Shown here piece after piece: positions 45,109-46,545 of a stretch of 64,000 nt of DNA. This DNA is from Chthoniobacteraceae bacterium. GTDB taxonomy: Bacteria; Verrucomicrobiota; Verrucomicrobiia; Chthoniobacterales; Chthoniobacteraceae. Each line of letters opens with the position of its first letter. The first letter of the stretch is position 1. The stretch lies in assembly GCA_028293625.1 (NCBI GenBank), contig JAQGOL010000030.1, forward strand, positions 124,001-188,000, given 5' to 3'. The notes beneath the pieces were generated by a model, which saw only the letters and a program-made list of their open reading frames with translations, made no database searches and had not been told where the DNA came from. A program made the position numbers and the translations under genes.

Positions 45109-45909
45109 TCATTCGATCGGCACAAGCTGGCGCAGATAAGGCCATAAGAATGCCGCGAAATTTTCTGTGTTCTCAAGCCACTCCCGTCCAAATGCATGAA
45201 AGGTCACCTCAGGCGCCGCAAAGATCAGGAGTGCGCCAAGGAGCAACAGATTCATGATGTAAATGATGACCAATGAATAAAAAGTGCCAAATTGGGTAAG
45301 GTCACTTTGACCTTTTGGAATCATCCATATTGTAAAGCTCATATGAAAAGCCCACGTCAGGCCGATTAATGCAAATAAGCCGGGCGTGTAAAGCGTGACA
45401 TCATAGAACAGGCTCGCCACCCCATATAGCGCGATTACTACAATACTATAAAGCGGATAGAAATAGGGCGCCAAAGCGATCCAGACATTATGCGTGTCGG
45501 TAAGAATAAAACCGCCATCCCGCCCGACTTCAAATTGACTTACCCGCCCTCCCATTGCCCAGACCCAGATTGCATGCGTTAATTCGTGCCCAAATACATA
45601 AACCCTCAACGGCCGCGGCTCGCCAAACACCCAGATGCTTCCAAAAAAGGCAAGCGTCCACAGAATCGCGCCGAGGGAGAAAAACCAAAACTCTTCGGCA
45701 GCCCAAAACCCATGTTCAACAGCGGCTCGAGAGAAACTCGTAAAGAGAGTTTGCGTGAGCAAGCCGGCAGGCGGCAGTAAAAAAAGACCGATCACCGAGT
45801 TCAACCATCGGGTCGGGATGGCGCGCGCTTCCCAAGCGGTGGCAACGACGCCCAGCTTCAGCTTGCGGAGAGGCTTCCTTGGTTTGCGGCTCACGGGCGA
45901 CCCCGGCAA
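45109..45909 (-). CDS. M50-like integral membrane metalloprotease
   Basis: A 266-residue polytopic membrane protein with about six hydrophobic segments. HELTHAIW (HELTH at 108-112) at the start of a membrane segment is the zinc motif HExxH of site-2-type proteases. The second half lacks an obvious PDZ domain or the usual NPxxDG motif, so activity is uncertain; ALAPYFYPLYSIVVI is the best candidate for the second conserved segment. A basic N-terminus (KPRKPLRKLK) is on the cytoplasmic side. It stands alone between the pilin leader and efp; target unknown. Confidence 0.7.
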   Translation of the reverse strand: MPGSPVSRKPRKPLRKLKLGVVATAWEARAIPTRWLNSVIGLFLLPPAGLLTQTLFTSFSRAAVEHGFWAAEEFWFFSLGAILWTLAFFGSIWVFGEPRPLRVYVFGHELTHAIWVWAMGGRVSQFEVGRDGGFILTDTHNVWIALAPYFYPLYSIVVIALYGVASLFYDVTLYTPGLFALIGLTWAFHMSFTIWMIPKGQSDLTQFGTFYSLVIIYIMNLLLLGALLIFAAPEVTFHAFGREWLENTENFAAFLWPYLRQLVPIE

Positions 45910-45987: not shown

Positions 45988-46545
45988 TTAAGCGCGGCCC
46001 ATGTAGGTGCCGTTGCGAGTGTCGATTTTCACCGACTCACCTTCCTTGATGAAGAGTGGGACATTGACCACAAGTCCGGTCTCAAGAGTCGCCGTCTTCA
46101 TAACGTTGTTGGCGCTGTCACCGCGAACACCTTCAGCCGATTCGGTGACTTTCAAAACAACGGAAGCGGGCACTTCAACCTGGGCCGCCTTGCCTTCAAC
46201 ATAAAGGACTTCCACCTTGAGGTTTTCAACAAGGTATTCCTTCACATCGGCCAGTAGTTTCTCATCCAGGGAAACCGTGTCGTAGGTTTCCGGGTCCATG
46301 AAATGAAAGCCCTGGTGATCCTTGTAACTGAATTCCACCGAGGTGCGCTGGATATCGACGCTTTCCACTTTATCGGTGGAACCAAAACGCACGTCGGCGG
46401 ATTTACCGGTGCCGATATAACGGATGATCGCTTGAACAAATGCCCGCAGATTGCCGGGAGTGCGATGCATGACTTCCAGCACAATGGCAACGTTGCCATT
46501 GTAACGGATGCACATGCCTTTGCGGAGATCGTTTGCCTGGGCCAT
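45988..46545 (-). CDS. efp: Elongation factor P with Asn at the usual modification site
   Basis: Relieves ribosome stalling at polyproline. The 185-residue product has the three EF-P domains: KOW-like domain I (LRKGMCIRYNG), the OB domain II and the C-terminal OB domain with TGLVVNVPLFIKEGESVKIDTR. The domain I loop reads TPGNLRAF, so Asn32 aligns with the Lys34 of E. coli that is beta-lysylated and with the rhamnosylated Arg of other bacteria. No epmA, epmB or earP gene is adjacent. It is the last gene of the HPr-kdsD-efp group. Confidence 0.93.
   Translation of the reverse strand: MAQANDLRKGMCIRYNGNVAIVLEVMHRTPGNLRAFVQAIIRYIGTGKSADVRFGSTDKVESVDIQRTSVEFSYKDHQGFHFMDPETYDTVSLDEKLLADVKEYLVENLKVEVLYVEGKAAQVEVPASVVLKVTESAEGVRGDSANNVMKTATLETGLVVNVPLFIKEGESVKIDTRNGTYMGRA

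Follow-up and report, generated by a model that had tools for sequence, protein, structure and literature searches.

How can an EF-P act with an asparagine at its tip? EF-P normally reaches the tRNA end by means of a long, modified side chain at this point. The efp gene of a Chthoniobacteraceae bacterium, located at 45988..46545 on the minus strand of the window (the whole 64,000-nucleotide stretch of contig JAQGOL010000030.1 that was analysed), encodes a protein of 185 aa in which a short Asn stands in its place. Such a variant, widespread, with no modifying enzyme found and with its loop kept nearly unchanged, is a natural experiment on how the loop can function in the absence of that enzyme.

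Identity of the gene and architecture of its loop

The efp open reading frame read in the window is full-length, starts with ATG and includes its stop codon. Its product passes the EF-P model TIGR00038 (210.3 bits, curated cut-off 185.8) and NF001810 (213.1 bits, cut-off 161), carries all three Pfam EF-P domains (KOW-like, OB and C-terminal), and lies below the EfpL cut-off (131.1 bits versus 216). The AlphaFold2 model, built from 41 sequences, has a pLDDT of 89.4 and a pTM of 0.69, and Foldseek gives a TM of 0.87 both to the solved Thermus thermophilus EF-P (1ueb_A) and to the ribosome-bound chain 6enj_w. The closest named record, from a Chthoniobacter MAG, is 92% identical across the protein. 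An EFP_N domain search of the genome, which is 96.4% complete, returned efp as the sole match; the same search yielded matches in 14 of 14 control genomes, 13 of them above the cut-off. The gene is thus a genuine EF-P. The preliminary description of this locus had recognized an EF-P with Asn32, and the intact frame, the AAT codon and the curated scores bear this out; a second, canonical copy carrying the main function, which it had considered, was not found in the genome by the EFP_N search.

EF-P residues 28-36 read R-T-P-G-N-L-R-A-F. In the model, the 7-residue loop T29-P-G-N32-L-R34-A35 (residues 29-35) connects two strands, 18-28 and 36-43. In alignment, Asn32 (AAT, 46450..46452, minus strand) corresponds to Lys34 of E. 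coli EF-P, the residue that is modified there, and it matches without gaps the lysine of the three solved EF-P chains compared (PGKGPAF, PGKGQAF and PGKGAAF). The solved structure closest in sequence is 6s8z, the EF-P of Corynebacterium glutamicum, which retains the tip lysine (PGKGPAF), unlike the Asn-type protein, and which we take to belong to the stiffened-loop actinobacterial EF-Ps. Two arginines flank the tip, Arg28 (CGC, 46462..46464) and Arg34 (CGG, 46444..46446), both on the minus strand and both invariant in PGN-x-R EF-Ps; lysine-type relatives have Gln, Thr or Ala at position 34.

These residues belong to a near-invariant block, HRTPGNLRAFVQ (residues 27-38; 46432..46467, minus strand), every position of which is more than 99% conserved among 180 distinct full-length PGN-x-R sequences. 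Across the whole protein, 30 positions are at least 99% conserved (176 distinct full-length sequences) and 12 of them are residues 27-38, which makes the tip the most strongly constrained region rather than a decaying one. These conservation counts exclude fragments shorter than 165 aa, two of which deviate, with Met33 in one and Ile37 in the other. In the lysine type, residues 27-37 follow the pattern F-[V/C/S]-K-P-G-K-G-[Q/T/A]-A-[L/I/M]-Y, position 38 is Arg or Lys in 57 of 74, and the site of Arg28 is basic in none (0/74), counted over the 74 distinct sequences from other classes among the matches listed. Relative to that type, basic residues are lost at 29, 32 and mostly 38, and gained at 28 and 34. 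With so many positions differing, the whole loop has been rewritten, and not changed by a single substitution.

The architecture differs from each of the known systems. The lysine-type EF-P that is beta-lysylated by EpmA belongs to the same family, with three domains, a 7-residue loop and a Pro two residues before the tip, but the tip here is Asn, followed by Leu and by Arg34 instead of Gln, Thr or Ala, and EpmA was not found in the class. Asn32 likewise departs from the aminopentanolylated Lys of the Bacillus type (YmfI). The arginine-type EF-P, rhamnosylated by EarP, shares the fold, yet it has an Arg tip and mostly lacks Pro at -2, as stated in PMC6544042, whereas Asn32 and Pro30 are present here. 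EfpL (YeiP), which acts with an unmodified tip according to PMC11611912, has a longer loop and an Arg tip; the loop modelled here has 7 residues, and the protein scores far below the EfpL cut-off.

Distribution and history of the loop in Verrucomicrobiota

Within the order (Chthoniobacterales, to judge from its named members), PGN-x-R occurs in 59 of the 59 genomes read, out of 117 drawn. The 80 named loci obtained from close relatives all have it as well; two of them come from a single MAG (L075, L125), and the set does not form an independent sample, since a close-relative search selects near kin. Elsewhere in the class, 68 of the 114 genomes read carry PGN-x-R; the other 46 consist of 26 PPR, 11 QGR, 5 PPN, 2 PGK, 1 PGR and one genome (G436) in which only a paralogue was read. 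Of 77 genomes from other classes, taken from the phylum draw among the matches listed, 76 have PGK and the remaining one (G285) has only an EfpL-like protein. G436 and G285 are kept in the totals; G096, G413 and G433 are tested genomes with no EF-P match and no loop read. Asn32 is therefore a group trait, common to the order and to most of the class. Relatives with Lys at this site, which the preliminary description had weighed against its reading, are not found within the order (59/59 Asn); the alignment across Verrucomicrobiota that it proposed gives Asn in most of the class and Lys in the other classes of the phylum.

EpmA shows a matching distribution. No genome of the class carries it above the curated cut-off (0/103, curated EpmA model), and the class matches listed for this model all lie in open frames of at least 439 aa, as expected for lysyl-tRNA synthetase and its kin. 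In other classes, EpmA is present in 50 of the 56 PGK genomes tested (76 were read), 41 times above the cut-off and nine times just below it, as short proteins of about 290-325 aa; for reference, 2 of 14 control genomes and 41 of 59 relatives score above the cut-off. Among the 159 tested genomes with an EF-P read, all 50 carriers are PGK genomes of other classes, and none of the 81 tested PGN-x-R genomes is among them. The epmA gene is located within 2.5 kb of efp in 38 of the 50 carriers, on a different contig in 11, and at a distance on the same contig in one, so that most tested lysine-type relatives have the enzyme, often beside its substrate gene. The EpmA pattern follows the lysine tip, suggesting that lysine and enzyme vanished together. 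EpmA is lacking in 6 of the 56 tested PGK genomes of other classes, G004 among them, and loss of the enzyme therefore does not always entail loss of the lysine; nor was it found in G237 and G240, the only PGK genomes read within the class. EarP has no match in the 103 class genomes, and none in the control genomes either, so its absence is only provisional. The best EpmA-model match of the genome under study (E 1.4e-12) is below the cut-off. The earlier statement that no known tip modification fits this protein thus stands, with a loop devoid of lysine and with the proposed epmA search negative in this genome and throughout the 103 of the class. That the Asn tip is a class-wide old state tied to EpmA absence had not been foreseen.

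The history of the loop was followed on a quick maximum-likelihood EF-P tree of 103 rows, capped per family, from which the loop columns, paralogues, named loci and fragments were removed. A branch with support 100 parts the class from 18 of the 21 lysine-type rows. PGN-x-R holds the basal branches of the class, while Arg loops, PPN loops and three PGK sequences are nested inside it, the latter from two class genomes and from G004, which is assigned to another class; seven changes account for all loop types on the tree. Deep branches are weakly supported in places and some rows are long, leaving the order of events within the class unsure. The Asn-type subfamily would have originated close to the root of the class, roughly when EpmA was lost; at that point F-[V/C/S]-K-P-G-K-G-[Q/T]-A-[L/I]-Y-[R/K] may have been replaced as a unit by H-R-T-P-G-N-L-R-A-F-V-Q, to remain nearly unchanged in most of the class thereafter.

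Several further sequences accompany these groups. Lysine loops (PGKGNAL, PGKGQAV) are located inside the class part of the tree in L315 and L316 (family f8) and L303 (family f19), whose genomes lack EpmA. In other classes, L413 (G177) and L317 (G285) have EfpL-like, longer-tip loops, PSARGAAT and PTARGGAS; L413 stands beside a PGK EF-P, and L317 just passes the EfpL cut-off. Another type of EF-P paralogue, whose loops (for example GTAQTRHKLH) have Gln at the tip, or Lys in L221, occurs in 7 genomes of the class, which belong to 4 families with f71 predominating; its 9 copies are L217, L228, L219, L223, L226, L227, L213, L218 and L221. Four of these copies were scored and none is EfpL; the paralogues accompany an Asn-type copy except in G436, where the paralogue alone was read. 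Most class genomes match the EpmA model, which also catches class II lysyl-tRNA synthetases, at 1e-50 or better; the genome under study and those of family f71 match it weakly. Given its match of no better than E 1.4e-12, the genome under study could be without a class II lysyl-tRNA synthetase, unless the gene fell in an assembly gap.

Asparagine tips have been recorded before. They account for 2.2% of EF-Ps in organisms without YjeA/YjeK (PMC2821294, 2010) and for 2.23% of 1166 EF-Ps (PMC6544042, 2019), and asparagine is named among natural EF-P tips in PMC11611912. The tabulated proteins share the Asn tip and, in PMC6544042, the Pro at -2; in their available portions these surveys do not name a clade, connect the tip with EpmA loss, mention companion residues or offer a mechanism for the natural members. 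In the open-licence literature, supplements excluded, no paper was found on the Verrucomicrobiota Asn clade, its EpmA link or the invariant block; some of these species may be listed in the 2019 supplementary table.

Function of the Asn-type loop

Taken jointly, the results make it probable on balance that this is a genuine EF-P whose loop was rewritten near the base of the class, around the loss of EpmA, and which most likely acts without a modified tip. The Asn-type EF-P would still bind next to the P-site tRNA and accelerate Pro-Pro bond formation. Pro30 would keep the loop stiff, and Asn32, together with the relocated charges of Arg28 and Arg34, may hold the loop against the CCA end of the tRNA. 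Judging from the sequences, function without the known tip modifications is the most likely state, and there are precedents for it in PMC11611912, namely EfpL and the stiffened-loop actinobacterial EF-P, which is said to act without modification as is proposed here. The K34N variant of E. coli EF-P is inactive (PMC6544042). Asn alone is thus insufficient in the E. coli background, which fits a natural loop that differs at many positions.

Arg34, two residues beyond the tip, had been suggested as a stand-in for the modified residue. Its invariance in 180 distinct full-length Asn-type sequences makes it a good candidate, but five class genomes have Asn32, preceded by Pro-Pro, without Arg34 (loops PPNNAS and PPNLTS). 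Arg34 is therefore not always required. As a strict partner of Asn32 it is rejected, invariant as it is in PGN-x-R, and the PPN loops are a warning against crediting it alone. The PPN loops, in L214, L319 and L321 (family f13) and L318 and L325 (family f14), include N-x-S/T sequences.

It is possible, though we consider it unlikely, that the tip is modified after all, on Asn32, Arg34 or Arg28, in an undescribed way and by an enzyme that has no known connection with EF-P. The near-invariance of the 12-residue block is what the recognition site of an enzyme would show, the inactivity of E. coli K34N points in the same direction, and more than half of bacteria lack a known EF-P modifying enzyme, according to PMC6544042. 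Against this, the modified tips named in the cited papers are Lys or Arg, Asn32 is replaced by Arg or Lys in some lineages of the class, and the two genes neighbouring efp offered no candidate enzyme. A narrower version has a new EF-P modification, placed on Asn32 or Arg34 of the HRTPGNLRAFVQ loop, taking over from EpmA at the base of the class; it is tentative, and we would not expect it to hold.

The gene before efp encodes a KpsF-type isomerase. Directly after efp, at 45112-45909 on the minus strand, lies the gene of a 266-aa hydrophobic protein with a HELTH motif and with no Pfam or NCBIfam match. By tblastn, this protein is found in 71 of 80 named loci and in 27 of 51 loci of the order, and in none of 113 loci from the rest of the class or of 77 from other classes, the flanks searched being short and of unequal length. 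As a modifier of the tip it was set aside, not being found outside the order in these short flanks.

A weakened EF-P, with polyproline stalls resolved by other factors such as ABCF ATPases, is improbable. These ATPases are reportedly linked, in the titles of studies such as PMC11381351, to bacterial stall resolution alongside EF-P, and the inactive K34N variant would agree with such a loss of function. However, no other part of the protein is as conserved as the tip, which is retained even in G036, a member of the order with a genome of 0.9 Mb.

Polyproline usage was compared in one genome per loop type, from ORF-based gene calls covering 200-421 kb, and the samples are small. In 421 kb of the genome under study, from which L355 was left out as it overlaps the window, PP stands at 0.92 and PPP at 1.10 of the shuffled expectation. 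The corresponding values are 1.00 and 0.90 in a lysine-type relative (G083), and 0.95 and 1.50 in an Arg-type relative (G251), which was selected by its family and then found to have a PPR loop. There is no clear sign of polyproline avoidance in these samples, and the idea was rejected.

The DHS homologue and polyamine enzymes

According to PMC6544042, some bacteria whose EF-P tip is Lys or Asn encode a DHS-like protein, which is proposed there as a possible EF-P modifier. A DHS-family enzyme would be one candidate modifier of the HRTPGNLRAFVQ loop where a genome has one, and the genome under study has a single DHS in which the SWGK lysine region is present. The co-occurrence is strong: DHS is found in 69 of 81 PGN-x-R genomes, in only 6 of 55 PGK genomes (a count that includes two from the class, which have none), and in none of the 43 class genomes with PPR, QGR, PPN or PGR loops. 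Nevertheless, modification of the Asn-type EF-P by this homologue is highly improbable. It is dispensable, as 12 of the 81 PGN-x-R genomes do without it, among them every one of the 6 read of family f71. The copy in the genome under study scores as a 'homospermidine biosynthesis protein' (588.7, cut-off 450), and the copies in Asn-type genomes fall into two DHS subfamilies of different names and a third group that fits no named model; 20 further copies divide into 1 of the homospermidine kind, 3 guanidino-polyamine synthases and 16 that pass no named model. Asparagine is, moreover, a chemically poor acceptor. Only 2 independent contrasts fall on supported branches, both of them favourable but too few for a test.

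The DHS pattern is also nearly exclusive with that of another polyamine enzyme, nspC, since nspC is matched in 20 class genomes (above the cut-off in 15) and 19 of these are DHS-negative. Among the 103 class genomes, 69 have DHS only, 19 nspC only, 1 both and 14 neither, which suggests alternative polyamine routes within the class. SpeD, checked as an explanation of the DHS pattern, is present in 6 of the 103. On these grounds DHS was rejected as the modifier of Asn32, and we take it for a polyamine enzyme, its agreement with the clade being a coincidence of history. This bears on the published suggestion, for DHS is dispensable in this class and resembles a polyamine enzyme in the genome under study.

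Finally, a sequencing error, a pseudogene or a contaminating contig, as well as chance, can be dismissed for practical purposes, as the reading frame is intact and the PGN motif recurs in all 80 named loci and all 59 genomes of the order.
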